DNA of 64,000 bases, taken from contig NZ_JBBOPI010000001.1 of assembly GCF_038003525.1 (NCBI RefSeq), forward strand, positions 2,595,001-2,659,000, in the 5' to 3' direction. Below, one piece after another: positions 7,046 through 58,002 of the stretch. A program made the position numbers and the translations under genes. The notes beneath the pieces were generated by a model. It worked only from the letters and a program-made list of their open reading frames with translations, did not search any database and was not told where the DNA came from. This stretch comes from Solibacillus sp. FSL H8-0538. Lineage in GTDB: Bacteria; Bacillota; Bacilli; Bacillales_A; Planococcaceae. The stretch's first letter is position 1; each line of letters begins with the position of its first letter.

Positions 7046-7128
7046 ATTAGAAAGACACATCTTGCCCAATATAGTGCGAGATGATCTCCTTCCTTATGTA
7101 GATACGAAAGTTATACTTTCTTACCTAC
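7046..7128. repeat. Terminator-linked bipartite repeat, full-length copy
   Basis: An 83-bp unit starting ATTAGAAAGACACATCTTGC and ending TTATACTTTCTTACCTAC. It consists of two imperfect palindromes: GACACATCTtGCCCaat with its partner GCGAGATGATctCC, and GTAGaTAcGAAAGTTATAC with its partner. Outer ends TTAGAAAG and CTTTCTTA are short inverted repeats. It lies directly beyond the U-tract of the racE terminator. Confidence 0.85.
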
Positions 7129-7129
7129 T

Positions 7130-7167
7130 AAAAGAAAAGACTCAAATAGATATACAATCTATTTGAG
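7130..7167 (-). terminator. racE terminator
   Basis: On the minus strand, stem CTCAAATAGA/TCTATTTGAG is followed by TCTTTTCTTTT, starting 6 nt after the racE stop codon. Confidence 0.85.
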
Positions 7168-7173
7168 CCATCA

Positions 7174-7968
7174 TTAAAATGTAATTCGGCGAATGTCTAA
7201 CTCTTCCTGATTTAGCCATCGCTCGCATATTGAACGAAAAATAGGGACAGAACCGGATGCATGAAACACATGCTTTGGCTTTTCTTCATCAGTTCGAAGC
7301 TGGCCATTGTATTGTAAAATCGCTTCTACATCTTTTGCTGTTTCTTCGGCTGAAGATAATACATGCACATTAGGTCCGACCGCTGCTTCAATTTGCTTTT
7401 GCAATATCGGGTAATGCGTGCAACCTAAAATTACTGTATCAAAGCGTTCTTCCTGAAGCGGCATTAATCCTGTTTCTACAAGATCGTACGAAAACTTCCC
7501 TTCGTATTCACCACTTTCAACAAGTGGTACAAACGTTGGACAAGCAAGTGGAATAATTTTCGCTTTCGTATTTAGCGATAGTAATGCTTGCTCGTAGGCA
7601 CCGCTTTTAATTGTGCCTTCCGTAGCGAGTACTACGACTTCATTACGCTTTGTTTTTTTCACTGCAGCTCGAGCACCTGCATTAATAACACCTAATACAG
7701 GGAAAGGCATATGTTTTTGCAAACTTTCTAATGCAACAGCTGTTGCTGTATTACAGGCTATGACAAGCATTTTGACATTCATTTTTTCAAGTGCCTTTGC
7801 CATTTGCCAAGTATATGTACGCACTTCCTGCTTTGAACGAGGCCCGTACGGACATCTTGCTGTATCACCTATATAATAAATTGTTTCATTTGGCAAAAGT
7901 TCCATAATCGCTTTTGCAACAGTTAATCCGCCTACTCCGGAGTCAATTACACCAATCGGGGCATTCAT
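7174..7968 (-). CDS. racE: Glutamate racemase
   Basis: The enzyme converts L-glutamate to D-glutamate for peptidoglycan synthesis without a cofactor. The 264-residue protein shows I-D9-S-G-V-G-G-L-T-V, the first catalytic cysteine in A-C72-N-T-A-T-A and the second in L-G-C183-T-H-Y-P. It lies 16 bp after the MarR gene ysmB, so gerE, ysmB and racE are consecutive as in B. subtilis. A Rho-independent terminator follows immediately. Length and motifs are canonical. Confidence 0.95.
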   Translation of the reverse strand: MNAPIGVIDSGVGGLTVAKAIMELLPNETIYYIGDTARCPYGPRSKQEVRTYTWQMAKALEKMNVKMLVIACNTATAVALESLQKHMPFPVLGVINAGARAAVKKTKRNEVVVLATEGTIKSGAYEQALLSLNTKAKIIPLACPTFVPLVESGEYEGKFSYDLVETGLMPLQEERFDTVILGCTHYPILQKQIEAAVGPNVHVLSSAEETAKDVEAILQYNGQLRTDEEKPKHVFHASGSVPIFRSICERWLNQEELDIRRITF

Positions 7969-7984
7969 TTGTACCGCCTCAATC

Positions 7985-8428
7985 CTATTTCATTAATAAA
8001 TGTAGTTTTTGTAAGTTTCTTAATAATTCTTCTGCTTCATTTTTGTCAAACTCACCCATAATATCACGCAAGTAATTTTGACGTTTTTCAATTACTTCTT
8101 CAATTATACGCTCGCCTTCAGCAAGTAAATGAATACGTACAACGCGGCGATCATGTTCATCACGCACACGCTGTACTAATTCATTTTTCTCCATACGATC
8201 TACTAAATCAGTTGTTGTACTAAATGCTAAATACATTTTTGTGGATAAATCCCCAATTGTCATATCACCTGATTCATGTAACCACTGAAGCGCAATAAAC
8301 TGCGGAGGTGTGATTGTATAATTACTTAAAATTTCGCGACCTTTTTGTTTAATTAAGTGTGAAATATAACGTAATTCTTTTTCTAAAATAGCTACGGATT
8401 CAAAGCTGTGTTTGTCATTATCATTCAT
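7985..8428 (-). CDS. ysmB: MarR-family transcriptional regulator YsmB
   Basis: The 147-residue protein has a MarR winged helix: helix-turn-helix around T-I-G-D-L-S-T-K-M-Y-L-A-F-S-T-T-T-D-L-V-D-R-M-E (residues ~75-100), followed by the wing with D-E-H-D-R-R-V-V-R-I-H-L (~112-123) and a C-terminal dimerisation helix. It is placed between gerE and racE exactly as ysmB is in B. subtilis. The ligand and targets are unknown. It may regulate its own operon with racE, but no operator was identified. Confidence 0.85.
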   Translation of the reverse strand: MNDNDKHSFESVAILEKELRYISHLIKQKGREILSNYTITPPQFIALQWLHESGDMTIGDLSTKMYLAFSTTTDLVDRMEKNELVQRVRDEHDRRVVRIHLLAEGERIIEEVIEKRQNYLRDIMGEFDKNEAEELLRNLQKLHLLMK

Positions 8429-8502
8429 CTAATCCATTCACTCCCCAAATACATATCGTAGTTCTATTGTGAAGTGTTTTTTCTGAAATAGCAAGTTCCC
8501 AA

Positions 8503-8724
8503 TCAGTTTAATGATAATTCTTGTAAACGTAGTAATTCAATTAGTGCCTGCGTTCGACTTGATACACCCAGTTTTTGAATCGTATTGGAAATGTGATTTC
8601 GCACCGTTTTTTCGCTTATCCCTAGTTTTCCCGAAATCTCTTTCGTTGAATAATCTTCAATTAATAACTGAAAGATTTCGCGTTCTCTTTTCGTTAACAG
8701 CGAACGATGCTGCGGGCTACTCAT
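8503..8724 (-). CDS. gerE: Spore germination / late mother-cell regulator GerE
   Basis: GerE is a free-standing LuxR-type DNA-binding protein that acts with sigma-K late in the mother cell to switch spore-coat genes on or off. The 73-residue protein is essentially one LuxR helix-turn-helix domain: L-T-K-R-E-R-E-I-F-Q-L-L (10-21), Y-S-T-K-E-I-S-G-K-L-G-I-S-E-K-T-V-R-N-H-I-S (25-46). B. subtilis GerE is 74 residues and lies in the same neighbourhood. It shows that the organism forms endospores. Confidence 0.93.
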   Translation of the reverse strand: MSSPQHRSLLTKREREIFQLLIEDYSTKEISGKLGISEKTVRNHISNTIQKLGVSSRTQALIELLRLQELSLN

Positions 8725-8794
8725 CTTGCAACACCCTCCTATCCTCTTCTATGTACAGTATGTTAAAAGAAGTTAGGCGGTGAGGGCGTTTTCA

Positions 8795-9241
8795 CTATTT
8801 CCCAAGCAATAATTTTTTTTCTTTTTCGCTAAGCGGTGCACCCTTACCTGTTTTGTAGTTCATTTGAACTAATGTTCCGCGCCCAGTAAAGCAAATTTCA
8901 TCGTTAGCGTTCTTCACCATATAATGAAGATCTAGAGAAGATTTACCCACACTTGCTGTCTTTACATAAATCGTCAGTACTTCGTCAAAAAACACTTGCT
9001 TTATGTAATCACATTGAATATCTGCGACAACTGTCATATTTTCGGTAGTTGGATCAGCTAAGTCTTTCATTAAATTAAGTGCCTTTAAGTATTCAATACG
9101 TGCGTATTCAAAATATGTAAAAATCACTGTATTATTAACATGACCGTTCAAATCTGTTTCTGAAAAACGAACTTGAACATCCACCGAAAATGTAAATCCA
9201 TTCATCCATTGTTGTGCATCAACAATATATGCTGCTCGCAT
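8795..9241 (-). CDS. ysmA: Acyl-CoA thioesterase, hotdog fold (YsmA)
   Basis: The 148-residue protein has the 4-hydroxybenzoyl-CoA thioesterase signature F-S-E-T-D-L-N-G-H-V-N-N-T-V-I-F-T-Y-F-E-Y-A-R, with the catalytic Asp in ETD and the nucleotide-binding helix downstream. It is predicted to hydrolyse acyl-CoA thioesters in the cytoplasm. The start ATG at 9241 is supported by AGGGGG 8 nt upstream; an out-of-frame ATG lies 4 nt before it. A FadR-like operator sits about 40 bp upstream, suggesting control by fatty-acid status, which has not to my knowledge been assigned to this gene. Confidence 0.85.
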   Translation of the reverse strand: MRAAYIVDAQQWMNGFTFSVDVQVRFSETDLNGHVNNTVIFTYFEYARIEYLKALNLMKDLADPTTENMTVVADIQCDYIKQVFFDEVLTIYVKTASVGKSSLDLHYMVKNANDEICFTGRGTLVQMNYKTGKGAPLSEKEKKLLLGK

Positions 9242-9282
9242 TCATACGTCCCCCTAATTTTAATTTGTGTATTCCCCTTTGT

Positions 9283-9300
9283 AAAATGAATACTCATTCA
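9283..9300. promoter_or_regulatory. FadR-like operator upstream of ysmA
   Basis: The sequence AAAATGAATACTCATTCA matches the B. subtilis FadR consensus (TGAATGA, 4-nt spacer MTAN, TCATTCA) at 16 of 18 positions. It lies ~42 bp upstream of the ysmA start. A second match occurs in the fad operon in this window. Confidence 0.6.
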
Positions 9301-9359
9301 TTATATCATAATAACGTATTACTATTCCAAAAAAACACATACATTTGGAATTCATAGAT

Positions 9360-9442
9360 GTTGGAAAGACACAGCTCGCCCAAAATAAGCCGAGCTGATG
9401 TCCTTGCTTATGCGGATGAGATAATTATACTTTCTTATCCAC
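9360..9442. repeat. Terminator-linked bipartite repeat, full-length copy
   Basis: An 83-bp copy: starts GTTGGAAAGACACAGCTCGC and ends ATACTTTCTTATCCAC. It abuts the U-tract of the sdhB terminator. The arms ACAGCTCGCCC and GCCGAGCTGATGT covary relative to other copies (CATCTC/GAGATG becomes CAGCTC/GAGCTG), which supports selection or copying of a base-paired structure. Confidence 0.85.
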
Positions 9443-9443
9443 T

Positions 9444-9480
9444 AAAAAAGCTAGCTCCCTCCGTCAAGAGAGAGCTAGCC
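9444..9480 (-). terminator. sdhB terminator
   Basis: Minus strand: GGCTAGCTCTCTC pairs with GAGGGAGCTAGC, followed by TTTTTT, 12 nt after the sdhB stop. Confidence 0.9.
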
Positions 9481-9492
9481 TTACATTTATAA

Positions 9493-10272
9493 TTAGTCAA
9501 CCATGTGGTCAGAACCGAAGAAGTTCTTGAACATTTGAACTGTTGTTGCACGGTTAAGTGAAGCAATAGAAGTTGTTAAAGGAATACCTTTTGGACAAGC
9601 AGCTACACAGTTTTGAGAGTTACCACAGTTTGCAAGACCACCGTCGCCCATGATAGCAGCTAAACGTTCGTCTTTATTCATCGCACCTGTTGGGTGTGTG
9701 TTGAATAGACGTACTTGTGATAATGGAGCTGGCCCCATGAATGAAGCACCTTCAGACACGTTTGGACATGCCTCCATACATACACCACAAGTCATACATT
9801 TAGATAATTCATAAGCCCATTGACGTTTGCGCTCAGGCATACGTGGACCTTCACCTAAATCATAAGTACCATCGATTGGAACCCATGCTTTTACTTTTTT
9901 CAGTGCATTGAACATACGGCTACGGTCTACCTGTAAGTCACGTACAACTGGGAAAGTTTTCATTGGCTCTAGGCGAATTGGTGTTGTTAACTTATCAACA
10001 AGTGCTGAACAAGATTGTTGCGGACGTCCGTTGATAACCATTGAACATGCGCCACAAACTTCTTCTAAACAGTTCATATCCCACGTTACAGGCGTAGTAG
10101 CTTTACCATCTGCTGTTACTGGGTATTTTTGAATATGCATTAATGCTGAAATTACGTTCATACCTGGACGGTAAGGAACTCGGAATTTCTCCCAACGTGT
10201 TCCACCGTTCTCCGTGTCTTGACGAAGGATCTCTATATCAATTATTTTGCCAGTGTTCGCTGTTGCTTCCAT
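9493..10272 (-). CDS. sdhB: Succinate dehydrogenase iron-sulfur subunit
   Basis: SdhB carries electrons from the flavin subunit to the membrane cytochrome through three iron-sulfur clusters. The [2Fe-2S] ligands are C68, C73, C76 and C88 (NCLEEVCGACSMVING, then QSCSA). The second domain supplies C159-x-x-C162-x-x-C165-x-x-x-C169-P and C216 with C222-x-x-x-C226-P for the [4Fe-4S] and [3Fe-4S] clusters. At 259 residues it matches the Bacillus-type enzyme. The gene starts two bases after the sdhA stop and ends the sdhCAB operon, followed by a strong terminator. Confidence 0.96.
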   Translation of the reverse strand: MEATANTGKIIDIEILRQDTENGGTRWEKFRVPYRPGMNVISALMHIQKYPVTADGKATTPVTWDMNCLEEVCGACSMVINGRPQQSCSALVDKLTTPIRLEPMKTFPVVRDLQVDRSRMFNALKKVKAWVPIDGTYDLGEGPRMPERKRQWAYELSKCMTCGVCMEACPNVSEGASFMGPAPLSQVRLFNTHPTGAMNKDERLAAIMGDGGLANCGNSQNCVAACPKGIPLTTSIASLNRATTVQMFKNFFGSDHMVD

Positions 10273-10274
10273 GA

Positions 10275-12032
10275 TTAGTTATCCCCTTTCGCAGAATAGT
10301 CACGTTTACGTGGTGGGATTAATGATACGTCTACCTCATCATACGTAATGATTGGTTCGCCAGTAGCTGGATCAAATTTCGCCATCGTTGTTTTTAAGAA
10401 GTCTTCATCGTTACGATCTGGGAATTCAGGTTTATAGTGAGCTCCGCGAGACTCGTTACGTAAAAGAGCGCCTTTAGTAATTACTTTTGCAAGATATAGC
10501 ATGTTTTTCAACTGACGCGTAAAGTGAGCACCTTGGTTACTCCATTTTTGCGTATCGTTAATGTTGATTTTTTCCCAACGCTCAAGTAATTCATTTAGTT
10601 TTTTATATGTTTCTTCTAAACGATCGTTGTGACGAACTACGGTTACATTGTCTGTCATCCATTCGCCAAGCTCTTTATGAATTAAGTAAGCGTTTTCTGT
10701 TCCATCCATTGAAAGAATTTCTTCCCATTTCGCTTTTTCTTCTGCTTCACGAGCTGTAAAGATGTCTTCTGGAAGATCTTCTGCATGTTTTTTCAGTTGC
10801 TTTACATATTCTACTGCGTTTGGTCCTGCAACCATACCGCCGTAAATTGCTGATAATAGTGAGTTTGCACCCAGACGGTTTGCACCATGTTGAGAGTAAT
10901 CACATTCACCCGCTGCAAATAAACCAGGAATTTCAGTCATTTGATCGTAATCTACCCATAGTCCGCCCATTGAATAGTGAACCGCTGGGAAGATTTTCAT
11001 TGGAAGTTTTCGTGGATCATCTCCAACGAATTTTTCATAAATTTCGATGATACCACCAAGTTTGATATCTAATTCATGTGGATCTTTATGAGAAAGATCT
11101 AGGTATACCATGTTTTCTCCGTTGATACCAAGTTTTTGGTTAACACATACGTCGAAGATTTCGCGTGTTGCGATATCACGTGGTACTAAGTTACCGTAAG
11201 CTGGGTACTTTTCTTCTAGGAAGTACCATGGTTTACCGTCTTTATATGTCCAAACACGGCCACCTTCACCACGAGCAGATTCTGACATTAGACGGTTTTT
11301 GTCGTCGCCAGGGATCGCTGTCGGGTGAATTTGGATGAACTCACCATTGGCATAAGAAGCACCTTGTTGGTAAACAATTGATGCTGCTGAACCCGTGTTG
11401 ATTACTGAGTTTGTTGTTTTACCGAAGATAATACCAGGACCACCCGTTGCCATAATAACCGCGTCACCACGGAACGATTTGATTTCTTCAGTTTTTAAAT
11501 CTTGCGCTACGATACCGCGGCATACGCCTTCGTCATCTGTAACAGCACCAAGGAATTCCCAGTGCTCATATTTCGTTACTAAACCTGCTACTTCATGTGA
11601 ACGAACTTGCTCATCAAGTGCATATAGTAATTGTTGACCAGTTGTTGCACCAGCAAATGCTGTACGGTGCATTAACGTACCGCCAAAACGACGGAAGTCA
11701 AGAAGACCTTCTGGTGTACGGTTAAACATTACGCCCATGCGGTCTAATAAGTGAATGATACCAGGTGCGGCATCAGCCATTGCTTTTACTGGTGGTTGGT
11801 TTGCTAAGAAATCCCCACCGTAAACTGTATCGTCAAAGTGGATCCATGGAGAATCCCCTTCACCTTTAGTGTTAACTGCGCCATTAATTCCGCCTTGCGC
11901 ACATACAGAGTGTGAGCGTTTTACTGGAACTAATGAGAATAATTCAACTGCAGTGCCTACTTCAGCTGCTTTAATCGTTGCCATTAAGCCGGCTAATCCG
12001 CCGCCTACGACGATGATTTTGCTTTTCGCCAT
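10275..12032 (-). CDS. sdhA: Succinate dehydrogenase flavoprotein subunit
   Basis: The 585-residue catalytic subunit oxidises succinate to fumarate on the cytoplasmic face. The FAD-binding motif V-V-G-G-G-L-A-G-L-M-A sits at the N-terminus. H-S-V-C-A-Q-G-G-I-N-G-A (residues ~41-52) is the region of covalent flavin attachment in this family, and S-E-S-A-R-G-E-G-G-R and H-Y-S-M-G-G-L-W-V-D are active-site segments. It lies between sdhC and sdhB; about 95 bp separate it from sdhC. Length and order match the B. subtilis operon. Confidence 0.96.
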   Translation of the reverse strand: MAKSKIIVVGGGLAGLMATIKAAEVGTAVELFSLVPVKRSHSVCAQGGINGAVNTKGEGDSPWIHFDDTVYGGDFLANQPPVKAMADAAPGIIHLLDRMGVMFNRTPEGLLDFRRFGGTLMHRTAFAGATTGQQLLYALDEQVRSHEVAGLVTKYEHWEFLGAVTDDEGVCRGIVAQDLKTEEIKSFRGDAVIMATGGPGIIFGKTTNSVINTGSAASIVYQQGASYANGEFIQIHPTAIPGDDKNRLMSESARGEGGRVWTYKDGKPWYFLEEKYPAYGNLVPRDIATREIFDVCVNQKLGINGENMVYLDLSHKDPHELDIKLGGIIEIYEKFVGDDPRKLPMKIFPAVHYSMGGLWVDYDQMTEIPGLFAAGECDYSQHGANRLGANSLLSAIYGGMVAGPNAVEYVKQLKKHAEDLPEDIFTAREAEEKAKWEEILSMDGTENAYLIHKELGEWMTDNVTVVRHNDRLEETYKKLNELLERWEKININDTQKWSNQGAHFTRQLKNMLYLAKVITKGALLRNESRGAHYKPEFPDRNDEDFLKTTMAKFDPATGEPIITYDEVDVSLIPPRKRDYSAKGDN

Positions 12033-12129
12033 GATTATTTCTCACTCCTCTTACATTGCTATTTACTTTCATCACCTGTTTGTTTTATACGTCCGTAACT
12101 ATGTATCAGTACTTCAAGTTACGTTAATA

Positions 12130-12744
12130 TTAAACAAATGCTAAAATTGCAGCTACACCAACAATACTTAACACTACGAAGAATGCTAATGTAATATATG
12201 TTGCCACTTGTTGTGATTTCTTTGATTGTGTAATTCCCCAGCTAACTAAGAACGACCATAAACCGTTCGCTAAGTGGAATGTTGCAGCTAAGATACCTAC
12301 GATGTAGAAAGCTAACATCAAAGGATTATTCACAATTTCTTGCATCATATCAAAGTTAACTTCTTCACCAAACGCCTTTTGAATACGCGTTTGGAAGAGA
12401 TGCCATGCAATGAATACTACTAAGAAAATACCTGTGAAACGTTGTAGTGCAAACATCCAGTTACGGAATGTGCTAAAACGCTTCGTATTGTTCGTAGCAG
12501 TAAACGCAATGTAAATTCCGTAAAATGCATGGAAAATTAATGGGATATAAATAACTACCCATTCAACTAGCAACAGCAGAGAATGTGGAACTAATTCCAT
12601 TACCCCCGTTGCATCATTGTAAGCTTGTTCACCGCCAACAGCAGTGAAGTTCAATGACAAGTGGAACGCCAAAAACAGACCTACTGGAACTACACCAAGT
12701 AAAGAATGCAAACGACGCCATAAAAATTCACGATCTTTCGACAA
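12130..12744 (-). CDS. sdhC: Succinate dehydrogenase cytochrome b558 subunit
   Basis: The 204-residue membrane anchor is the Bacillus-type single large cytochrome with five predicted transmembrane helices (around residues 15-35, 60-80, 95-118, 140-162 and 180-202). Histidines within the helices (for example in LGVVPVGLFLAFHL and FIAWHLFQT) are candidate axial ligands for two hemes b; electrons pass to menaquinone. It is the first gene of sdhCAB and is preceded by a good sigma-A promoter. Confidence 0.94.
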   Translation of the reverse strand: MSKDREFLWRRLHSLLGVVPVGLFLAFHLSLNFTAVGGEQAYNDATGVMELVPHSLLLLVEWVVIYIPLIFHAFYGIYIAFTATNNTKRFSTFRNWMFALQRFTGIFLVVFIAWHLFQTRIQKAFGEEVNFDMMQEIVNNPLMLAFYIVGILAATFHLANGLWSFLVSWGITQSKKSQQVATYITLAFFVVLSIVGVAAILAFV

Positions 12745-12853
12745 GACTGTTACCCCCCTTAGTACTTAAAATCCGAAGTCATTTACGTCACGAAATTGTT
12801 AACGTTTCGCATTGACTGCGCATTTCATAATGGTACAATATTATGACATGTCC

Positions 12854-12882
12854 ATTGTACTCTCAAGATTTACTAGCGTCAA
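12854..12882 (-). promoter_or_regulatory. Sigma-A promoter of sdhCAB
   Basis: On the minus strand, TTGACG (12882-12877) and TACAAT (12859-12854) are separated by exactly 17 bp, about 110 bp upstream of sdhC. Downstream, around 12797-12811, GCGAAACGTTAACA resembles a catabolite (cre) site in 11 of 14 positions, which would place it within the early transcribed region; this second site is tentative. Confidence 0.75.
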
Positions 12883-13015
12883 GGTAACTTCGAACATTTA
12901 ATACAAATGAAAAGCGTTAGATTTTACTGTTTTATTCCTGTTTTTTCTACAAATTGTATGCATTTTTTCTATTTAAGTCTGAATTATAAGAAAATTTACG
13001 AAAGAGGTTTTTTCC

Positions 13016-13429
13016 ATGGCAGTTGATCAAATGAAAACGATTCCAGCATTTGGCTACGAAATCGTTCGCGATAGCTTACTCTCTTCCATCCTCGGCAAGC
13101 ATGAAGAGGATGTTTTATACTGGGCGGGCAAACAAATAGCACGTAAATTCCCTTTATTTTCAATGACAGAGGCTGCTTCTTTTTTTCATGAAGCAGGCTG
13201 GGGTATATTATCGTTGGAAAAAGAGACCAAGGACGAGGCTTACTATTTTCTCACAAATGAACAGGATCTACTAAATATCGAAAATCGTTGCTTCCGTCTT
13301 GAGGCAGGCTTTTTAGCAGAACAAATGCAAAAAAACATTGGCTTCTTAACAGAGTGCTATGATGAAAAAAACGTCAAACAAAACACGGTTAAGTTTCATG
13401 TAAAGTGGGATTTAAAAGAACAGATGTAA
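13016..13429 (+). CDS. yslB: YslB, DUF2507 protein
   Basis: The 137-residue protein is divergent from sdhC in the position yslB holds in B. subtilis. It belongs to the DUF2507 family: N-terminal P-A-F-G-Y-E-I-V-R-D-S-L-L, a central L-Y-W-A-G-K-Q-I-A-R-K-F-P and A-S-F-F-H-E-A-G-W-G. The fold is related to the V4R/4-vinyl-reductase-like small ligand-binding domains. Function is unknown; no membrane segment or signal peptide is visible. Confidence 0.8.
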   Translation: MAVDQMKTIPAFGYEIVRDSLLSSILGKHEEDVLYWAGKQIARKFPLFSMTEAASFFHEAGWGILSLEKETKDEAYYFLTNEQDLLNIENRCFRLEAGFLAEQMQKNIGFLTECYDEKNVKQNTVKFHVKWDLKEQM

Positions 13430-13440
13430 TAAAACAAAAG

Positions 13441-13556: not shown

Positions 13557-13613
13557 GCATTTACTTTTTTTTATGTTATCCACATAGCGTAATTTCATAA
13601 TTCCCCTAGCAGG

Positions 13614-13662
13614 AACAAAGGCGATTGTCAGCACAATTACTATGCGGACAATCGCCTTTGTT
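13614..13662. terminator. Bidirectional terminator between yslB and lysC
   Basis: A perfect 16-bp stem (AACAAAGGCGATTGTC and GACAATCGCCTTTGTT) around a 17-nt loop lies between the convergent ends of yslB and lysC. Confidence 0.75.
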
Positions 13663-14989: not shown

Positions 14990-15150
14990 TTCTTCACTCT
15001 CCTTTAATTTTGATAGATCACTCGCAGGAAGTAATACATACTATGTGCATCCCCCGCGGCTCACCGCTGTTACTAATAGAATTTGAATTGTGGTCAATAG
15101 AACTATGTTGTTACTAATAGAGCCCCTAACGTTACTAAAACCGAATACTC
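14990..15150. other. lysC leader region
   Basis: The lysC ribosome binding site (AAAGGAGAG) lies just before the start. I looked for the conserved L-box core of a lysine riboswitch in this stretch and do not see it. Confidence 0.4.
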
Positions 15151-15216
15151 CTATTAAAATAGAGCAAAATGATGTCCTTACTAATATGGAGGGGAAAGTT
15201 ATACTTCCTTATCCAC
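15151..15216. repeat. Terminator-linked repeat, 5'-degenerate copy
   Basis: Matches the 3' two thirds of the family: AAAATAGAGCAAAATGATGT, then GAAAGTTATACTTCCTTATCCAC ending in the terminal CCAC. The A-run of a minus-strand terminator starts at the next base. Confidence 0.75.
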
Positions 15217-15250: not shown

Positions 15251-15498
15251 CCTCAATGACAAAAAACTGTTAGTTGAGATAGCTCTCCAGAACGTGACAT
15301 TCTGACAGTCCTACATTTATTAAATGCACAACCAGCATATAGCTTGAACAATTCGCTACACACTTCGGCAGTCTCCCCTTTCGCTTGCAATCACAGGATT
15401 TGTTCAACCTCCTGCAAGCTACTCTTGAATGCTGCACCTCTATCAAAAAGTATTTAATTATTATTTCCAACAATAGCATAATGATCATGCTTTTTCAA

Positions 15499-17326: not shown

Positions 17327-17409
17327 GTTAGAAAGATACATCTTGCCATCAAAATAGGGTTCGATTTTGATATTTATTAAGTGGTTAAGTAAGCTTTACT
17401 TTCTTATCC
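17327..17409. repeat. Terminator-linked bipartite repeat, full-length copy
   Basis: An 83-bp copy starting GTTAGAAAGATACATCTTGC and ending CTTTACTTTCTTATCC. It lies between uvrC and trxA, directly beyond the U-tract of the trxA terminator. Its second palindrome is diverged in the left arm (GTGGTTAAGTAAGC). Confidence 0.8.
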
Positions 17410-17443
17410 AAAAAAAGCCGCATGCACTATGGCACGCGGCTTT
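17410..17443 (-). terminator. trxA terminator
   Basis: Minus strand: AAAGCCGCGTGCC pairs with GCATGCGGCTT, followed by TTTTT; 13 nt after the trxA stop. Confidence 0.88.
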
Positions 17444-18019: not shown

Positions 18020-18078
18020 ATTAGAAAGACACAACTCACCTAAAATAAGGAGAGATGCTGTCCATACTTATGTAGATA
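18020..18078. repeat. Terminator-linked repeat, internally deleted copy
   Basis: Contains the first palindrome in full (ATTAGAAAGACACAACTCAC and its partner GAGAGATGCTGTCC) and TACTTATGTAGATA, but lacks the GAAAGTTATACTTTC core of the second palindrome. It runs directly into the etfA terminator. Confidence 0.75.
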
Positions 18079-28148: not shown

Positions 28149-28233
28149 TTAAAAAGACACATCTCTCCCCAAAATCGGGCGAAATGATGTGCTTTCTTTT
28201 TGGGTATCCTAAAAGTTATACTTTCTAATCCGC
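28149..28233. repeat. Terminator-linked bipartite repeat, full-length copy
   Basis: An 85-bp copy beginning TTAAAAAGACACATCTCTCC and ending AAAGTTATACTTTCTAATCC plus GC. It sits between polX and cvpA, directly beyond the U-tract of the cvpA terminator. Confidence 0.8.
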
Positions 28234-33379: not shown

Positions 33380-33451
33380 ATTAGCAAAACACATCTCCCC
33401 CAAAAACAGGGCGGGTTGGTGCGGTTATGGAAGTTATATTTTCTTACCCAC
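33380..33451. repeat. Terminator-linked repeat, 72-bp copy
   Basis: Starts ATTAGCAAAACACATCTCCC and ends GTTATATTTTCTTACCCAC. It is shortened between the two palindromes. It abuts the U-tract of the dbpA terminator and lies 28 bp after the convergent TetR gene. Confidence 0.8.
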
Positions 33452-44284: not shown

Positions 44285-44460
44285 AAGATATCCCCTCCAT
44301 AAAGAGCAGAGATTCCCATTTTCTAAAGGGCATATTTACCCTTCCACAATCTTAATACCTATTTTTATAGCGGTCAAAGGTAAGTATTTCATTTTTTAAC
44401 ATATAAATTTATAATAAAATCATATATTTATTATCTCTTTGTTTTACCGAGGGAATTTAC

Positions 44461-44487
44461 ATTAGAAAGTTATACTTTCTTATCTAC
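44461..44487. repeat. Terminator-linked repeat, minimal copy
   Basis: Only ATTAGAAAGTTATACTTTCT then TATCTAC remain: the 5' end is fused to the second palindrome, and the first palindrome is lost. It abuts the U-tract of the next terminator. With the copy at 18020, which lacks the other palindrome, it shows that the element is modular. Confidence 0.75.
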
Positions 44488-44596: not shown

Positions 44597-45361
44597 TCAA
44601 TATGGAGTAAATACGAACCGATCGATAATAATCTCTGCAGATTTTTTATTCATTGGTGCCTTTCCTTCAAACTGCCAGAAATTTATATGTACTTTCTCAT
44701 TCTTACTATCTGGTATATCTTTTCCCTTGTAGGACCAATTTTTTAATAAGCTCGAATTCCCTGGATTTTTAAATGACTTATGTCCATATGATTTAAAATT
44801 TATGCTCTTTTGTGTCCATGTAAAACTATGGGTAGAATAGTTACTATTTAGTTTTGTTGAAAATGCAAGAAAATTTTCTGGCATTGTGTATGGGAGAACT
44901 GTATAAGAGCTATTCAGTCCATTTACTTGTCCCCATTTGGCAAATTCAATATCAATTTCTCTATATTTCTTCTCTTTTACATCCTCAGAATCTTCATCAT
45001 AAGTAAACAAACCTAATACAAGGTTTGGATCTAACTTATCTGGGCGCCCAGTAATTAAAAAACGATACGTACCATACCCTAAAGTTTTTTCATTTATTAG
45101 TTCAGTGCTATACCATTTACCGTTCCGCTTAACGACTTTTAGATGTAGCCTGCCTCGGCTGTCTACCCATACATCTCTCTTATCGGATGACCAATAGTTC
45201 TGTCCAGGTCCCCACTTGCTCGTACCTGAATTTTTCACTGTCCAAGTATACCCACTCCATTCGATCGTTTTTTGATCCTTGGCCAGAACGTGTTCGACTA
45301 AAATCAGAATAGGGAAGGCAGTTAATAATGCAAGCAAAATTTTTCTCCAGTATTTCTTCAT
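44597..45361 (-). CDS. Secreted GH16-family glycoside hydrolase
   Basis: A 254-residue exported protein with a signal peptide (K-K-Y-W-R-K-I-L-L-A-L-L-T-A-F-P-I-L-I-L, cleavage probably near VLA-KD). The fold is the GH16 beta-jelly roll. The catalytic signature R-E-I-D-I-E-F-A-K-W-G (~136-146) contains the nucleophile and acid/base glutamates in the E-I-D-I-E arrangement of lichenase-like enzymes, and S-T-H-S-F-T-W-T-Q and I-N-F-W-Q-F-E-G follow. The ATG at 45361 is supported by GAGGG 7 nt upstream; the TTG two codons earlier overlaps it. It probably trims the polymer of the adjacent GT2 synthase; this is inference from position. Confidence 0.82.
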   Translation of the reverse strand: MKKYWRKILLALLTAFPILILVEHVLAKDQKTIEWSGYTWTVKNSGTSKWGPGQNYWSSDKRDVWVDSRGRLHLKVVKRNGKWYSTELINEKTLGYGTYRFLITGRPDKLDPNLVLGLFTYDEDSEDVKEKKYREIDIEFAKWGQVNGLNSSYTVLPYTMPENFLAFSTKLNSNYSTHSFTWTQKSINFKSYGHKSFKNPGNSSLLKNWSYKGKDIPDSKNEKVHINFWQFEGKAPMNKKSAEIIIDRFVFTPY

Positions 45362-45545
45362 ATCCAATCCCTCATCTTTCTTTACAGCACTTTATTGTGT
45401 ATAAGAGCTCTCCTTATTTATATCGGAAAAATTTTAAGATGATTAGATGTCTACGGTTAATTTTGTTATCTTTTTCTTATTTTTTCTCGATTCATACACA
45501 CAAATGTCAAAAAGAGATTATTTAATACAATTATTTTCCACTAAT
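45362..45545. other. Upstream region of the GH16 gene
   Basis: AT-rich, with no gene seen. It should contain the promoter of the secreted GH16 gene. Confidence 0.35.
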
Positions 45546-51458: not shown

Positions 51459-51994
51459 TTAATAATTTTACTAATGGCCTTAAATGCGTCACCTTTTGCA
51501 ATTTGTTGTATTTCAAATAGGCACATTTCTACGCTTGTCATGTTGGCACCGAGTTGAAGCATCTTTTGAATGCCGACTTCGCGATTGCCAGCTGTTCGTG
51601 ATGTTACACAGTCTGCTAATACTTCCACCTCGTAGCCCATGTCAAGTAAATGTGCTGCTGTTTGGTATACACAAATATGCGTTTCAATGCCGGCGATTAA
51701 TACTGTTTTGCGGCCTGTTGCTTCTAGCTTTGTAACAAATTCTTCATTATCATACGCGCTGAACGTAATTTTTTCGATTGGCTGCTCGCCTTCTAAATAC
51801 TGTGCGATTTCTTCTACTGTGTGTCCCAGTCCTTTTGGGTATTGTTCTAGCCATAAAATCGGTAGCTCGAGGACCTTTGCACCTTGAACGATATTGGCAA
51901 TATTATTAATAACAAAAGCACTTTCATCAACAATTTCAGCAAGCTTCCCTTGAATATCAATTAATACGAGTACTGTTTCTTCTTTTTTAAGCAT
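51455..51994 (-). CDS. Isochorismatase-family cysteine hydrolase
   Basis: The 179-residue protein has the isochorismatase-like fold: V-L-V-L-I-D-I-Q-G (catalytic Asp13), K-I-T-F-S-A-Y (Lys ~75) and G-I-E-T-H-I-C-V-Y-Q-T-A (nucleophilic Cys ~108), the triad of YcaC/nicotinamidase-like enzymes. The immediate relatives are YcaC-type hydrolases of unknown substrate. A ribosome site AGGAGG lies before the start. A 41-residue ORF overlaps its stop codon. Confidence 0.87.
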   Translation of the reverse strand: MLKKEETVLVLIDIQGKLAEIVDESAFVINNIANIVQGAKVLELPILWLEQYPKGLGHTVEEIAQYLEGEQPIEKITFSAYDNEEFVTKLEATGRKTVLIAGIETHICVYQTAAHLLDMGYEVEVLADCVTSRTAGNREVGIQKMLQLGANMTSVEMCLFEIQQIAKGDAFKAISKIIK

Positions 51995-52128
51995 AAAAAA
52001 TCCTCCTTTATGTAAGTGTTTTAAATAATTCTATTATACTTGAATTTTTTTACATGTGACGATATTTTTTCGTGAATTGAACGAAACCCCACATCACGGT
52101 ATAGTGGAGGAAGATAAGGAGGTTTTAC

Positions 52129-52614
52129 ATGCTACGACTTAGTTGGCTCATTAGTATGAGCATTTCGCTTTTTGGCGTTATGATAATAGAAAACTTTTTC
52201 ACGCTGAGCCCAGAAGGACAGCCTGGTGCTGGCAATCTCGGTGCAATTGGACTAGCGCTTGTGATGCCGTTTTTATTACTTAGTATATTGACGACGTACC
52301 GCTTTTTCCTGCAAGTTTCTCGTCGCTCAACCGACCGAATGATGGGTACTATAATGTTGTTTTTCGGATTTGCGTTAATCGGCGTGCTTGTATACTACGC
52401 GATTGATTATAAAAACGAGGCATTTGCTGCACTCGGTGGAAATACGAATAATCCGGAGTCCACAATTTACGGCTATCCGCTACTAAATCAATATACAAAT
52501 CATATTTTCATTAATTTTTATACGTTTGCAGTAGTGCACACAACATTTGCCTTAATTGGGGCAATTGTTGGGATATTTAAGCCAAAAAAACCACCTACGC
52601 TAAATGAAGAATAA
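52129..52614 (+). CDS. Hypothetical four-helix membrane protein
   Basis: A 161-residue protein with four predicted transmembrane helices (~5-25, 38-60, 73-93 and 128-150) and a hydrophilic segment with N-T-N-N-P-E-S-T-I-Y-G-Y-P-L-L-N-Q-Y-T-N between helices 3 and 4. AAGGAGG precedes the ATG. I do not recognise the family. It is followed 113 bp later by a LysE-type exporter on the same strand. Confidence 0.65.
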   Translation: MLRLSWLISMSISLFGVMIIENFFTLSPEGQPGAGNLGAIGLALVMPFLLLSILTTYRFFLQVSRRSTDRMMGTIMLFFGFALIGVLVYYAIDYKNEAFAALGGNTNNPESTIYGYPLLNQYTNHIFINFYTFAVVHTTFALIGAIVGIFKPKKPPTLNEE

Positions 52615-52727
52615 AATTTCATAAACATTTCATGTACTACTTCAGGCAGGAAATTCAATAATTTTAGCGCATCCTTTGAATTTGTGTGCTATATTTAGTC
52701 GCATTAACTAGGTTTTGAGGTGAGAGT

Positions 52728-53369
52728 ATGATAGACAATTTATTGATTTTTATAATGATTGCAACGATGCTCGTTATTATTCCGGGCGTGGATTTTTTAC
52801 TCGTAACGAAAAACACATTAAATTACGGTAAACATGCCGGTCATTTTACAACATTGGGTATCTTATTAGGATTAACAGTATGGACGATTTTAGCTGTTTT
52901 AGGCTTGGCTACTATTGTGGCAAACTCCATCATATTATTTACAATCATTAAATACTTAGGGGCGATTTATTTACTATGGCTTGGAGTGCAAGCGTTACTA
53001 GCACGTAAGTCTACAATGGCAGATTTACTTAAGCCTAACCAAAATAGTTCGGTGAAGAAACATACATATCGCTCTTGCTTTGCCCAAGGTGCACTCAATG
53101 ATTTACTAAATCCGAAAACGCTACTTGTTTATATGACATTAATGCCACAGTTTATTAATACGAATAATTCGATTACCCCACAGCTAATCACACTTGCTGT
53201 TATTTTAATGGTCATATCCGTCGTGTGGTTTATCATTATTGTATTTATTTTAGATATTATACGCGGATGGTTTTTACGTCCATCTGTACAGTCTATTTTC
53301 AACAAAGCTACTGGCGTGATGCTGATCTTTTTAGGCATCTGTGTTGCTTTAGAAGAAAAAACAATTTAA
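52728..53369 (+). CDS. LysE/RhtB-family exporter
   Basis: The 213-residue protein has six predicted transmembrane helices and the LysE-type signature: P-G-V-D-F-L-L-V-T-K-N-T-L-N-Y-G (~19-34), G-A-I-Y-L-L-W-L-G-V-Q-A-L (~77-89) and G-A-L-N-D-L-L-N-P-K-T-L-L-V-Y (~120-134). Such proteins export amino acids or homoserine derivatives; the substrate is not predictable. AGGTGAGAG precedes the start. A bidirectional terminator follows. Confidence 0.88.
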   Translation: MIDNLLIFIMIATMLVIIPGVDFLLVTKNTLNYGKHAGHFTTLGILLGLTVWTILAVLGLATIVANSIILFTIIKYLGAIYLLWLGVQALLARKSTMADLLKPNQNSSVKKHTYRSCFAQGALNDLLNPKTLLVYMTLMPQFINTNNSITPQLITLAVILMVISVVWFIIIVFILDIIRGWFLRPSVQSIFNKATGVMLIFLGICVALEEKTI

Positions 53370-53380
53370 CTCAACAAAGT

Positions 53381-53412
53381 AAAGGCGCCCGATTTTAGGA
53401 CGCCTTTTTTTA
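53381..53412. terminator. Bidirectional terminator after the LysE-type gene
   Basis: AAAGGCGCC...GGACGCCTTT stem with TTTTTT on the plus strand, shared with the convergent gene ending at 53410. Confidence 0.75.
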
Positions 53413-54030
53413 CCCTTTATACGCAATTTCCACTAAATTAAGGTTGTCCACTCTAAAATCTGTGCCGTACTGAATGCTACAATACAGCTCGCCAATATCT
53501 TTACCAGGACGAATGATGCCCACTCCAGTAAACGGCTTTCCAATATAAGGTTGGAGTACGTAAAAATTATTTAAATACTGCCGATTAAATGATTCTTCTA
53601 TAAAGCTACGGTCAAATACGATTGCAATATACTGATTATTCTCTGCAACAGTTAATACAGCTACTTGTCCTACAAGTTCTATATTTACAAACTCACCCAT
53701 CACAAGCCGTGTTTCACCGATATCACGAATGGATAGCTGTGAAACGAAACGCTTGCGTAGCTTCGGACCGCGAATCCATTTAAGCTCGTCCAATGTTTGC
53801 TGGTCAAATAAAGCTAGCTGCTCGCCTATCGATTGTTTTTTTGTGCGTGTTATTTTTTTCTCCTTTGGCAATGGCAGGCTTGGATGAACTAATTCGTGTT
53901 CCTTTTGTTCGGCTTGTTGAAAGAGCTTATACGCATCGCGAAGTGCGCGCTGCCGTCGTTCATAATGCAATGTAGCCATGATGTGCACACTTTTCGGTTC
54001 ACGCTCTAAAAGGATTAGCGGAACTTTCAT
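53410..54030 (-). CDS. Hypothetical protein (206 aa)
   Basis: A soluble basic protein with no recognisable domain. The first ~75 residues contain a charged helical segment (Y-E-R-R-Q-R-A-L-R-D-A-Y-K-L-F-Q-Q-A-E-Q-K-E), then a mainly beta-rich C-terminal part (~100-206: I-G-E-T-R-L-V-M-G-E-F-V-N-I-E-L-V-G-Q-V-A-V). GAGGTGATGAC precedes the ATG. It lies downstream of no obvious operon partner. Function unknown. Confidence 0.65.
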   Translation of the reverse strand: MKVPLILLEREPKSVHIMATLHYERRQRALRDAYKLFQQAEQKEHELVHPSLPLPKEKKITRTKKQSIGEQLALFDQQTLDELKWIRGPKLRKRFVSQLSIRDIGETRLVMGEFVNIELVGQVAVLTVAENNQYIAIVFDRSFIEESFNRQYLNNFYVLQPYIGKPFTGVGIIRPGKDIGELYCSIQYGTDFRVDNLNLVEIAYKG

Positions 54031-54160
54031 GTCATCACCTCATTCAATTTTTTTAGTTCTTGGGGTTATGTATGGCATACAATCAATTCCTACAACATTA
54101 TAAAACTTTATCTATATAGTACGTGCTTACTCTCTCATCCAATGTTGTATCATATGCAAA

Positions 54161-54208
54161 AAAACTGTGTAACAACCCTATTTCGAGGATTATTACACAG
54201 TTTTTATT
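54161..54208. terminator. pheT terminator
   Basis: AAAACTGTGTAA pairs with TTACACAGTTTT; T-runs flank it on both strands. It lies ~95 nt beyond the pheT stop. Confidence 0.75.
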
Positions 54209-54299
54209 TTTATAATTACCGTTGTTATACACTACTGTTGTTTTATTAGTAATCGTTACTTCCATAATAGCAACAATGGTATTTAACCTAACCTTATAA

Positions 54300-56708
54300 T
54301 TAGCGTACTTCTGCGCCAGCTTCTGTTAGTGCTTTTAAAACTTTATTATGTGCGGCTACTACTTCTTCGTCTGTTAATGTACGTTCTGGATCGAAGTAAG
54401 TTAATGAGAAGGCTACAGATTTTTTACCTGGTGCCATTTTCTCCCCTTCGTATACGTCGAATACTTTAACGTCTTTAAGCAGTTTTGTGCCTGCGCCTTT
54501 AATAATGCTGACAATTTCACCTGCCGCATGAGTGCGGTCAAGCTCTAATGCGATATCACGCGTCATTACTGGGAAACGTGGAACTGCGTTGTAGTAAAGC
54601 ACTTCTGTCGTTGCGCCTAAAATCGCGTGTAAGTTTAGCTCAGCTACATATGTTTCTTTGACGCCTGCTTTTTTCTGTTCAGCTGGATGAAGTTGGCCGA
54701 TTAAACCAACTTTTTCACCGTCTAGAAGTACGTTTGCCGTGCGTCCTGGGTGTAAGCCGTCGATTAGCGCTTTTTCGTATGATACGCGGCCTGTTAACGC
54801 TAGTTTCGCGAAAACTGCTTCTACGATACCTTTTACTACGAAGAAATCAACGTTTTTCTTCTCGCCCTGCCAAGTATTGTCAATCCATTTACCAGTTAAC
54901 ATAAGTGCTAAATGTTCTTCTTCAAATGGCAGTTCTTCTGCAGTTTGACCAAGGAATACTGAACCCACTTCATAAAGTGCGACAGAGTCTCCTTGACGTG
55001 CTACATTGTACGCAGCTGCTTCCACTAAGTGTGGGATTAAGCTTTGGCGTAATGTTGAACGTTCTTCAGACATTGGCATTAGAAGTTTTGTTGTTTCTTC
55101 TGCTTTTAGAGCAAATTTTTGAGAAGCTTCTGCAGAAGTTAATGAGTACGTCACTGCTTGGTAAAGACCTGCGCCTTCCATAACGTTACGAACGACACGA
55201 CGAGCTGCTTGATACGGTGATAAGCCCCCAACTTGCTCACCTGATTCAGGTAATGTTAACGGAATTTCATCGTAGCCGTACATACGTGCAATTTCTTCCA
55301 CGATGTCCTCCTCGATTTTTATATCTTGACGACGTGTTGGTGCATCTATGATTAATAACCCATTAACTACTTCTACGTCGAATTTTAGACGTCCTAAAAT
55401 AGAAAGCATATCTTCAAGTGAGATTTTCATTCCTAGACGTGTATTGATGAAGTCTGGAGATACGACAACGCGTGCTGGAGTTTTATCTAACTCGTCAACC
55501 AGTACTGTCCCTTCTAGTACTTCCCCACCTGCAAGCTCCACTAATAACTGTGCCGCGCGTTCTGCAGCTGGTAATACACGGTTTGGATCTACGCCTTTTT
55601 CGAAACGTGCAGACGAATCTGAACGTAAGCCAAGGTCTTTTGATGTACGACGAACTGAACTACCTGCGAAATAAGCTGCTTCAATAACAACAGTAGTCGT
55701 TGCATCTGAAACCTCTGATTTTGCCCCACCCATAACACCTGCTACTGCTTCAGGCTCTACACCATTTGTAATTAAGTAGTTATGTGCTTGTAATGTGCGT
55801 TCTGCATCATCTAAAGTGATAATTTTTTCGCCATCACGGGCTGGACGCGTTACAATTTCACCAGTACCTAATTTGTCGTAATCAAATGCATGAAGTGGTT
55901 GGCCGTATTCCATTAAGATGTAGTTTGTAATATCGACTACATTATTATGTGGACGTACGCCAGCCGCCATTAAGTAATGTTGTAACCAAAGTGGAGATTC
56001 AGCTACTTTGACATTTTTAATAACTTTTGCAGCGTATAATGGGTTTGCTTCAGTATCTTCAACACGAAGTTGAAGGACATCTGCTGCTTTTTCAGTTGAA
56101 GCAGTGTATGTGATTTCCGGTAGCTTCACATCTGTTGAAAGAATGGCTGCTACTTCATATGCCACACCTAACATTGATAAAGCATCTGAACGGTTTGGTG
56201 TTAAACCAAGCTCTAAAATTGTATCGCGTAAGCCTAATAATTCAAGTGCATCTGAACCTGGTACACTGTCAGCTGGTAGTACGTAAATACCTTCAGCATA
56301 AGCTTTTGGTACAAGACGACCTTCAACACCTAGCTCTTGTAATGAACAGATCATCCCGTTTGATTCTTGTCCACGAAGTTTTGCTTTTTTAATTTTAATG
56401 CCGCCTGGTAATTTTGCGCCTGGGCGTGCAACGATTACTTTTTGACCCTCATCAACGTTTGGTGCGCCACATACGATTTGTTGTAACTCTTCTTCACCAA
56501 CGTCTACTTGGCAAACATTTAATTTATCTGCTTCTGGGTGTTTTTCTTTTGCTACGACATGTCCGACAACGACATTTGACATGCCATGAGAACGGTCGAT
56601 TATTGCGTCTACTTCAATTCCTGAGCGCGTAATTTTTTCCGCTAACTCTGCAGGAGCTATATTTTGTGTGTCTACATATTGACTAAGCCATTTTAATGAT
56701 ACTAACAT
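54300..56708 (-). CDS. pheT: Phenylalanyl-tRNA synthetase beta subunit
   Basis: The beta chain of the (alpha-beta)2 enzyme carries editing and tRNA-binding functions. The 802-residue protein has the N-terminal M-L-V-S-L-K-W-L domain, an EMAP-like tRNA-binding domain (~45-150), the B3/B4 editing domain (~210-390), B5 (~410-475) and a C-terminal anticodon-binding ferredoxin fold (FDX-ACB, ~710-802; R-F-P-V-M-T-R-D-I-A). The start at 56708 has AAGGAGG 9 nt upstream and gives family length (B. subtilis 804); the longer frame overlaps pheS. It follows pheS by 13 bp and shares its T-box control. Confidence 0.96.
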   Translation of the reverse strand: MLVSLKWLSQYVDTQNIAPAELAEKITRSGIEVDAIIDRSHGMSNVVVGHVVAKEKHPEADKLNVCQVDVGEEELQQIVCGAPNVDEGQKVIVARPGAKLPGGIKIKKAKLRGQESNGMICSLQELGVEGRLVPKAYAEGIYVLPADSVPGSDALELLGLRDTILELGLTPNRSDALSMLGVAYEVAAILSTDVKLPEITYTASTEKAADVLQLRVEDTEANPLYAAKVIKNVKVAESPLWLQHYLMAAGVRPHNNVVDITNYILMEYGQPLHAFDYDKLGTGEIVTRPARDGEKIITLDDAERTLQAHNYLITNGVEPEAVAGVMGGAKSEVSDATTTVVIEAAYFAGSSVRRTSKDLGLRSDSSARFEKGVDPNRVLPAAERAAQLLVELAGGEVLEGTVLVDELDKTPARVVVSPDFINTRLGMKISLEDMLSILGRLKFDVEVVNGLLIIDAPTRRQDIKIEEDIVEEIARMYGYDEIPLTLPESGEQVGGLSPYQAARRVVRNVMEGAGLYQAVTYSLTSAEASQKFALKAEETTKLLMPMSEERSTLRQSLIPHLVEAAAYNVARQGDSVALYEVGSVFLGQTAEELPFEEEHLALMLTGKWIDNTWQGEKKNVDFFVVKGIVEAVFAKLALTGRVSYEKALIDGLHPGRTANVLLDGEKVGLIGQLHPAEQKKAGVKETYVAELNLHAILGATTEVLYYNAVPRFPVMTRDIALELDRTHAAGEIVSIIKGAGTKLLKDVKVFDVYEGEKMAPGKKSVAFSLTYFDPERTLTDEEVVAAHNKVLKALTEAGAEVR

Positions 56709-56721
56709 TGGTTGGTCCTCC

Positions 56722-57759
56722 TTACGCCTCTGTGCGGTGGAATTGTGATAGGAAACGTGTGTCATTTGTATAGAAATGACGGATATCATCCACCCCGTAT
56801 TTTAACATCGCGATACGTTCTGCACCGATACCGAATGCAAAGCCTGACACTTTCTTCGGATCGTAGCCAGCCATTTCAAGTACATTCGGGTGAACCATAC
56901 CAGCACCTAAAATTTCGATCCAGCCAGTTTTCTTACAAACGTTACAGCCTGATCCGCCACATTTGAAGCAAGAAACGTCTACTTCTACAGATGGCTCTGT
57001 GAATGGGAAGAATGATGGACGTAGGCGGATTTCACGTTCTTCACCGAACATTTTCTTCGCTAGTGCATTAAGTGTTCCTTTAAGATCGCTCATGCGGATG
57101 TTTTCGCCGATGACAAGGCCTTCTATTTGCATGAATTGGTGTGAGTGCGTTGCGTCATCTGTATCACGACGGAATACTTTACCTGGGCAGATGATGCGGA
57201 TTGCTTCGCCTTTTTTCGCTTCCATTGTACGGGCTTGTACTGGAGACGTATGTGTTCGAAGTAAGATTTCTTCTGAGATATAGAATGAATCTTGCATATC
57301 ACGTGCCGGGTGACCTTTTGGCAAGTTAAGTGCTTCAAAGTTGTAGTAATCTTTCTCGACTTCTGGACCTTCTGCAATCTCATAACCCATTGCGACGAAT
57401 AAGTCCTCAATTTCTTCGATTACGCGAGTAAGTGGATGACGGTTTCCCGCTTTCACTGTTGCACCTGGTAAAGTTACGTCGATTGACTCATTTTCAAGCT
57501 GTTCAAGGATGGCTTGCTCTTCCAGTGCAGTTACTTTTGTTTCTAGCACAGCTGTTACGTTTTCACGTACTGTGTTGACAAGTGCCCCCATTTTTGGACG
57601 TTCCTCAGCAGATAATTTACCCATACCTTTAAGTAAATCTGTGATTGGTCCTTTTTTACCTAAATAGGCAACGCGGACGTCATTTAGTTCTTTTAGGTCG
57701 CTAGCTGCTTCAATTTTCGCTAACGCTTCTTGTTCTAGTTGCTTTAATTGTTGTTCCAT
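56722..57759 (-). CDS. pheS: Phenylalanyl-tRNA synthetase alpha subunit
   Basis: The catalytic subunit charges tRNA-Phe. The 345-residue protein begins with a coiled-coil arm (~1-85) and continues with the class II core: motif 2 around [11 protein letters not shown] and [26 protein letters not shown], and the C-terminal motif 3 [14 protein letters not shown] (~311-324). It is the first gene of pheST and is preceded by a T-box leader whose attenuator is followed by a copy of the dispersed repeat. Confidence 0.97.
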
Positions 57760-57917
57760 TGTTTGAATTCCTCCTTGTAAAAGTGCGTGCAGCCAAAAAA
57801 ATGTTTGTTCATGGGCATTTGCAGGTGATCTCTATCAGTTATGGCGAGTTATCTATCTCGTCAGAAAAGTTATCTATCATTCGCCCACAAAACACAGGCC
57901 AAACACATTGTTTAGGC

Positions 57918-58002
57918 ATTAGAAAGACACATCTCACCCCAAAATAGGGGGAAGATGATGTCCTTTATTATGTGGTTATGGAAGTTATACTTTCTTAACC
58001 AC
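57918..58002. repeat. Terminator-linked repeat inside the pheS leader
   Basis: A full 85-bp copy starting ATTAGAAAGACACATCTCAC and ending TTATACTTTCTTAACCAC. It begins right beyond the U-tract of the T-box terminator, so it is transcribed only when the T-box reads through. It lies ~160 bp before the pheS start codon. Confidence 0.88.

Follow-up and report, generated by a model that had tools for sequence, protein, structure and literature searches.

A fork-oriented 82-nt repeat inserted 3′ of terminator T-tracts in a Solibacillus genome, a probable non-autonomous single-strand mobile element

Introduction

Among the systems closest to the repeat described here, IS200/IS605 elements are reported to prefer the lagging-strand template and to mirror the direction of replication (PMC5371812); in one published genome, IS605 copies had no strand preference, 10 of 22 being leading (PMC7290912). 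ISDra2 inserts 3′ of TTGAT (PMC2806898), and group IIC introns make use of the stem-loops of terminators (PMC7161350).

We analysed a repeat in Solibacillus sp. FSL H8-0538 (Bacillota; Planococcaceae), starting from a 64,000-nt stretch (contig NZ_JBBOPI010000001.1, positions 2,595,001 to 2,659,000), called the window below. A first-pass annotation, made from the letters of the window, had listed a dozen copies beyond Rho-independent terminators and had offered two explanations, a MITE or a host-domesticated 3′-boundary element.

Results

Copies in the window

A covariance model (R1) was built from six window copies, which match it by construction; the boundaries of the window copies (Table 1) were counted by hand. 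The model supported 11 of the 12 listed copies (E 2e-18 to 0.036), the exception being the one at 5058 (E 0.99), and ab initio repeat families took in most of the copies named earlier. The remaining matches in the window were weak or were minus-strand shadows of the palindromic hairpin 2, and were left uncounted. Under a hairpin rule scored without a control set, a minus-strand stem-loop abutted the T-tract in 10 of the 12 listed copies (ΔG −12.9 to −24.0 kcal/mol), the exceptions being 59150 (−2.3) and 5058 (no stem-loop). Pfam agreed on the racemase, SdhB-like, UvrC, thioredoxin, EtfA, CvpA and DbpA assignments, and the T-box claimed at the pheS site was present as a leader; at the supposed GH16 site, the neighbouring ORF (44597–45367) had no Pfam match. 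On read-through, the copies at the riboswitch and T-box hairpins (15132–15216 and 57919–58002) would be inside the leader.

Table 1. Repeat copies and adjoining leader elements in the window (positions count from its first letter; ΔG, adjoining stem-loop, kcal/mol)
Feature	Position	Strand	Context	ΔG
Full element, 82 nt, GTAG...TTTCTAA	7047..7128	-	3′ of racemase-gene terminator (hairpin 7139-7169)	-16.8
Full element	9361..9442	-	3′ of sdhB-like gene terminator	-24.0
Decayed full element	15132..15216	-	Directly after terminator-like hairpin past lysine riboswitch	-18.4
Lysine riboswitch	15272-15450	-	Upstream of hairpin beside the 15132..15216 copy	
Full, diverged element	17328..17410	-	After thioredoxin-gene terminator	-19.9
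Short form, most of hairpin 2 gone	18021..18077	-	After etfA terminator	-19.4
Full element	28149..28233	-	After cvpA-like gene terminator	-12.9
Internally deleted element	33381..33451	-	After dbpA-like gene terminator	-21.8
Hairpin-2 half alone	44455..44487	-	After terminator-like hairpin	-14.1
Full element	57919..58002	-	At terminator-like hairpin of T-box leader	-17.9
T-box leader	58021-58253	-	Its hairpin adjoins the 57919..58002 copy	
Short, decayed copy (E 0.036)	59151..59205	-	After T-tract without clear hairpin	-2.3
Short form	61012..61067	-	Adjoining hairpin T-rich-tailed on both strands	-15.3
Claimed copy 5058, unsupported (E 0.99)	5041..5138	-	No hairpin	

Copy number and structure of the element

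We then searched the whole genome with R1, scoring the best 150 of 1958 first-look candidates; 148 of these matches were chromosomal and 2 lay on a 192-kb second contig. A hand count over 800 kb, taken as 40 samples of 20 kb at even spacing, gave 50 matches at E ≤ 1e-5 after removal of two reverse-strand shadows, which extrapolates to about 230 copies on the chromosome.

Among the best-scoring matches, both ends were located in 147 chromosomal copies, and the modal length was 82 nt (103 copies). The repeat given earlier as ~83–85 bp is genuine, and its element proper is 82 nt in these 103. On the T-tract strand the element reads GTRG...TTTCTAA, with two hairpins and the ends GTAGATAAGAAAG. The order on this strand is terminator hairpin, T-tract, a single A, G or T, and then the element itself, made up of GTRG with hairpin 2, then hairpin 1 and its bulged Ts, and lastly TTTCTAA. 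In the best 148 chromosomal copies, each of positions −7 to −2 was T in 80–95%, and the base at −1 was A, G, T or C in 79, 32, 35 and 2 copies, with GTRG (either GTAG or GTGG) starting next. The right end TTTCTAA was located in 147 of these 148 (≤3 mismatches over 12 nt), and the position following it was T in 90 of the 147.

In the consensus fold, hairpin 2 spans 14 bp, and hairpin 1 is longer and has T bulges at 37 and 45. Across 99 distinct sequences, compensatory alternatives occurred at pairs 3–29, 5–27 and 48–69, pairs 7–25 and 8–24 were A–C in 43 and 38 sequences, respectively, and Watson–Crick cells over all pairs numbered 2733 of 3267 compared with 2589 expected. Covariation was confined to those three pairs and may stem from subfamilies. 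When window copies were folded singly on the plus strand, three of four beat their shuffles (z −3.7 to −6.1), and the fold of the copy at 17327 was at shuffle level (z −0.17). In the predicted fold GTRG is paired with CYAC, pair 3–29 being one that covaries. Hairpins lie at or near both ends, with hairpin 2 beginning at the left end itself and so not strictly subterminal. The short inverted ends reported earlier (TTAGAAAG / CTTTCTTA) proved to be the outer part of hairpin 1 in this fold, not terminal inverted repeats of the DDE type.

Short forms without hairpin 2 occurred repeatedly and would fit deletion between ATAAG repeats. Assignment to the nearest consensus divided the best-scoring chromosomal copies into subfamilies of 42, 12, 60 and 33, and a neighbour at ≥97.5% was present for 28 of 103 ungapped copies.

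Preference for terminators

A T-tract-abutting stem-loop with ΔG ≤ −8 was found at 99 of the 148 best copies, compared with 471 of 3321 repeat-free intergenic T-tracts (odds ratio 12); the other 49 chromosomal copies had no such hairpin. Within the stretches sampled for this test, the hairpin was present at 22 of 26 copies. The preference was seen both near gene 3′ ends (63/82 copies, 197/621 control T-tracts; odds ratio 7.1) and away from them (36/66 copies, 274/2700 controls; odds ratio 10.6). The first-pass annotation had singled out enrichment beside terminators as a deciding test, and genome-wide the copies were enriched there. Hairpins were commoner at old copies (41/51; <90% identity to a subfamily consensus) than at young ones (33/52; ≥95%), which indicates that selective retention may add to targeting.

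Filled and empty sites

Two sites could be compared in filled and empty form. At one, an IS200-type element (L056) holds a copy of the repeat at its transposase stop codon, and L054 provides the empty sequence; 20 of the 21 IS200 right ends compared were without the L056 insertion, with L193 representing the same copy as L054. At the other, genome G149 carries a relative of ~88 nt after a hairpin and T-tract, and G125 and G113 are empty, the hairpin being present in all three. The terminator-like hairpins at both sites are older than the insertion. The empty sequence in both comparisons was T-tract-A^T, and at these two sites insertion was precise, 3′ of the T-tract and without target duplication. 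Across 147 chromosomal copies, no flank matches were detected at k = 6–9, and the four at k = 4 equalled the shuffled maximum. Together with the enrichment for hairpins and T-tracts, the two empty sites support the original proposal of mobile insertion at terminator T-tracts. Shared vertical descent at orthologous loci would have told against that proposal. The one locus compared across relatives had empty sites instead, and some other loci do look shared by eye (for example L033/L044).

At the second empty site, genome G119 has an unrelated insert of ~230 bp (L240:2022–2255), ending GGCGTAATTGA, in the T-tract position used by the G149 repeat. Judged by eye, this insert is perhaps a TnpB/IS605-type remnant.

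Replication polarity

The orientation of the copies followed fork movement, which had not been noticed earlier. The chromosome's first gene, recognised by eye, is presumably dnaA, and GC skew switches between two samples, one at 1.78 Mb and the other at 1.87 Mb. The T-strand was the lagging-strand template in 134 of the 148 best chromosomal copies, in 46 of the 50 copies of the even samples (by hand) and in 24 of the 26 copies inside the stretches sampled for the hairpin test; leading-strand ORFs numbered 521 of 693 (75%). When stratified by gene end and hairpin, the polarity gave a Mantel–Haenszel odds ratio of 6.6 (χ2 51.3), with ORFs near copies called on shorter stretches than control ORFs. 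The excess over control was present in all four strata (leading/lagging, copies v. control: 59/4 v. 154/43; 19/0 v. 306/118; 31/5 v. 135/139; 25/5 v. 984/1442). Against a strict terminator control the excess was modest (84/92 copies, 131/165 controls; p = 0.014). The orientation bias goes beyond the strand bias of genes and terminators, with a smaller excess under the strict terminator control. Polarity was alike in young (48/52) and old (46/51) copies, which favours insertion bias over later purging.

The polarity extended to relatives. Three genomes from the genus of G149, each a single contig, were scored with the terminus taken as the contig midpoint and with rows matching only query genes or the terminator hairpin removed; 53 of 61 copies among the matches listed agreed (p = 0.04 against 75%).

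Distribution among relatives

Carriers numbered at least 8 of 151 family genomes (E ≤ 1e-7) and, among 261 genomes from the order, at least 17 (E ≤ 1e-6), spanning at least 5 of the 19 family genera including that of the present genome. At class level there were at least 3 of 398 (E ≤ 1e-5), namely this genome, G029 with a weak single match, and G427. All these counts are lower bounds because only 10–28 candidates per genome were scored in the large searches. The element is ~88 nt in Solibacillus-group relatives and ~91 nt in a second Bacilli family, represented by G427 (contamination 8%), which gave 9 matches among 10 candidates scored. In the G427 copies the left hairpin matches the subfamily A consensus exactly, but the right hairpin is different; six of the nine follow a hairpin of ΔG ≤ −8, scored without a control. 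This sister repeat (L265–L273) is very homogeneous.

Viral contigs gave no exact-pattern match to the repeat, and plasmids and phages gave partial weak matches or none, except for a plasmid of Sporomusa termitida with a 75% match to the G427 form (L274:3001–3120). Spread by phages or plasmids was rejected on these grounds. In the Sporomusa relative a second GAAAGTATAAG start comes at once, which suggests a tandem arrangement. No Rfam family matched, either in the window at gathering scores or at four loci at E ≤ 1.

Resident IS200 elements and candidate enzymes

Three Y1 genes of the IS200 type were found in this genome, along with a single weak, partial Y1 match. We examined 20 IS200-type elements of the family for their insertion sites; all 19 with a left end found directly follow a hairpin and T-tract under a relaxed rule applied without a control (14/19 under a first rule, which mis-anchored the T-tract in five). 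L209 was dropped because no left end was found, and L193, whose left end is rearranged, was left out. The elements after terminator-like hairpins (L055, L056, L194–L211) have their transposase in the same direction. Their polarity matched that of the repeat in all 11 hand-picked rows, drawn from four genomes whose chromosome is a single contig; G045 and G126-fragment rows were left out and would agree, and distant Y1 matches elsewhere were unused. This likeness in target and polarity is shared behaviour and not proof of mobilisation.

The ends of the repeat bore no resemblance to those of the resident IS200 elements. A Y1 match co-occurred with the repeat in 7 of the 17 carrier genomes found; the other 10 gave no Y1_Tnp match, among them G082 and G119 (both single-contig and 99% complete). 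Co-occurrence did not support resident IS200 TnpA as the sole mobiliser, the seven other family carriers all lying outside the 43 genomes that matched a TnpA search.

None of the Y1 and TnpB loci examined contained an autonomous element with the repeat's ends. The four TnpB loci had no repeat ends, except that L250 matched weakly over 34 nt (E 0.037), and a weak model match lay near a G113 IS200 (E 0.045). RAYT-like Y1 proteins were present in carriers (L245, L246 and L256), below the NCBIfam cut-off and without flanking repeats. RAYT-like loci were set aside, with no flanking repeats at the loci examined.

Discussion

We propose, with a probability of roughly 0.68, that the repeat is a non-autonomous, IS200/IS605-like single-strand mobile element that targets a terminator hairpin and its T-tract. 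Replication polarity and hairpin anatomy together suggest this route. The element would move as folded single-stranded DNA, and an IS200/IS605-type Y1 HUH transposase would cut and join it in trans at replication forks. The folded terminator, the T-rich DNA and the A may be recognised as a likeness of the element's own right end, in which a hairpin is followed by TTTCTAA. A candidate for the enzyme is the resident IS200 TnpA, whose target preference is the same. Counting against a Y1 route, hairpin 2 starts at the insertion point rather than subterminally.

The left end bears on a related explanation, in which the repeat is a REP/REPIN-type element whose GTRG is the GTAG tag and whose RAYT was ancestral and has been lost here. 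GTAG or GTGG is found at this end as in GTAG REPs, but here it is paired with CYAC, with one pair covarying, and the tag of REPs is reported to be unpaired (PMC3733652). Y1 proteins for which a RAYT model was the sole NCBIfam match, below cut-off, occur in three scanned genomes (G149, G124 and G258); however, this genome has no RAYT-like match apart from the one weak partial Y1 match, and at six RAYT-like loci in carriers (L245, L246 and L256–L259) no repeat lies within ~1.5 kb. We therefore consider a RAYT origin unlikely. We regard as still less probable a host-domesticated element kept by selection at operon ends for back-up termination, protection of RNA 3′ ends or supercoil relief. Covarying pairs, the position after terminators and the greater frequency of hairpins at old than at young copies would agree with such a role, but the orthologous site is empty in relatives, one insertion lies inside an IS200 copy, some copies are decayed or internally deleted, and others sit at riboswitch and T-box hairpins. 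Presence in some relatives and absence in others, together with the IS200 insertion and the decay, argues against a conserved host function; the 3′-boundary role suggested at first may be a later use of the element.

An element of 82 nt is too small to contain a group II ribozyme, no Rfam group II match was found, and a search of the genome for RVT_1 (PF00078) yielded nothing at E ≤ 0.001, all of which makes retrotransposition in the manner of a group IIC intron very improbable. That route has in its favour the same class of target, a terminator stem-loop with a T-rich IBS1 after it (PMC7161350). The other explanation in the first-pass annotation, a MITE, would in its ordinary form be mobilised by a DDE transposase, with polarity coming from gene strand bias alone. 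The repeat is indeed short, non-coding and multicopy, and 75% of ORFs are leading, but the polarity exceeds control in all four strata. Since neither target duplication nor terminal inverted repeats were seen, a conventional MITE is unsupported, and we give it scarcely any weight.

The reading as a single-strand element joins three things that are usually separate, namely the hairpins of terminators, transposition by single strands and the polarity of replication. If it is true, terminators serve as targets at the DNA level in addition to signalling in RNA, the ends of operons offer a parasite refuges in which it can rise to hundreds of copies, and resident IS200 elements are a ready system in which to test structural target recognition. 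The copies at T-box and riboswitch hairpins also fall within regulated leaders. More tentatively, terminators folded as single-stranded DNA on the lagging-strand template might generally serve single-strand transposons in these Bacillota as landing sites. IS200 elements and unrelated short repeats would alike take the hairpin and T-tract for their own right end and find in operon ends safe and plentiful targets.

In searches of open-licence PMC papers, we recognised none that describes this repeat or IS200 elements targeting terminators. Several described systems nevertheless share parts of its character. Group IIC introns have in common with it the target of terminator stem-loop and T-rich sequence; they are RNA/RT elements, and this genome has no RT match (PMC7161350). 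GTAG REPs and REPINs are likewise short hairpins with GTRG at one end, intergenic, high in copy number and thought to be mobilised in trans; the repeat differs in its paired tag, its fixed T-tract flank and the lack of an identified RAYT in the genome (PMC3733652, PMC3116915).

Two further groups are known from Haloquadratum (PMC3119063). The small mobile repeats SMR-A and SMR-B are also 80–110 bp long, make no target duplication and have no known mobiliser, and SMR-A resembles the present repeat in its strong preference for palindromes; SMRs differ in having inverted terminal repeats and in targeting other mobile elements. The palindrome-associated transposable elements (PATEs), of the IS605 type, are likewise non-coding, have near-terminal palindromes and lack their own transposase (PMC3119063). 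Repeat-mediated internal deletions yield short forms of PATEs, as they may here, and their insertions are strain-specific although nearly all the IS200-type transposases are broken (PMC3119063). The palindromes of PATEs have relatives in those of IS605-type transposons, whereas no parent was found for the repeat, and the IS605-type target is described as an oligonucleotide of 4–6 nt, whereas the repeat uses a hairpin and T-tract (PMC3119063). The IS200-type elements of the same family differ from the repeat in encoding TnpA and in having other end sequences, and they share with it the site 3′ of hairpin and T-tract, the orientation and the polarity.
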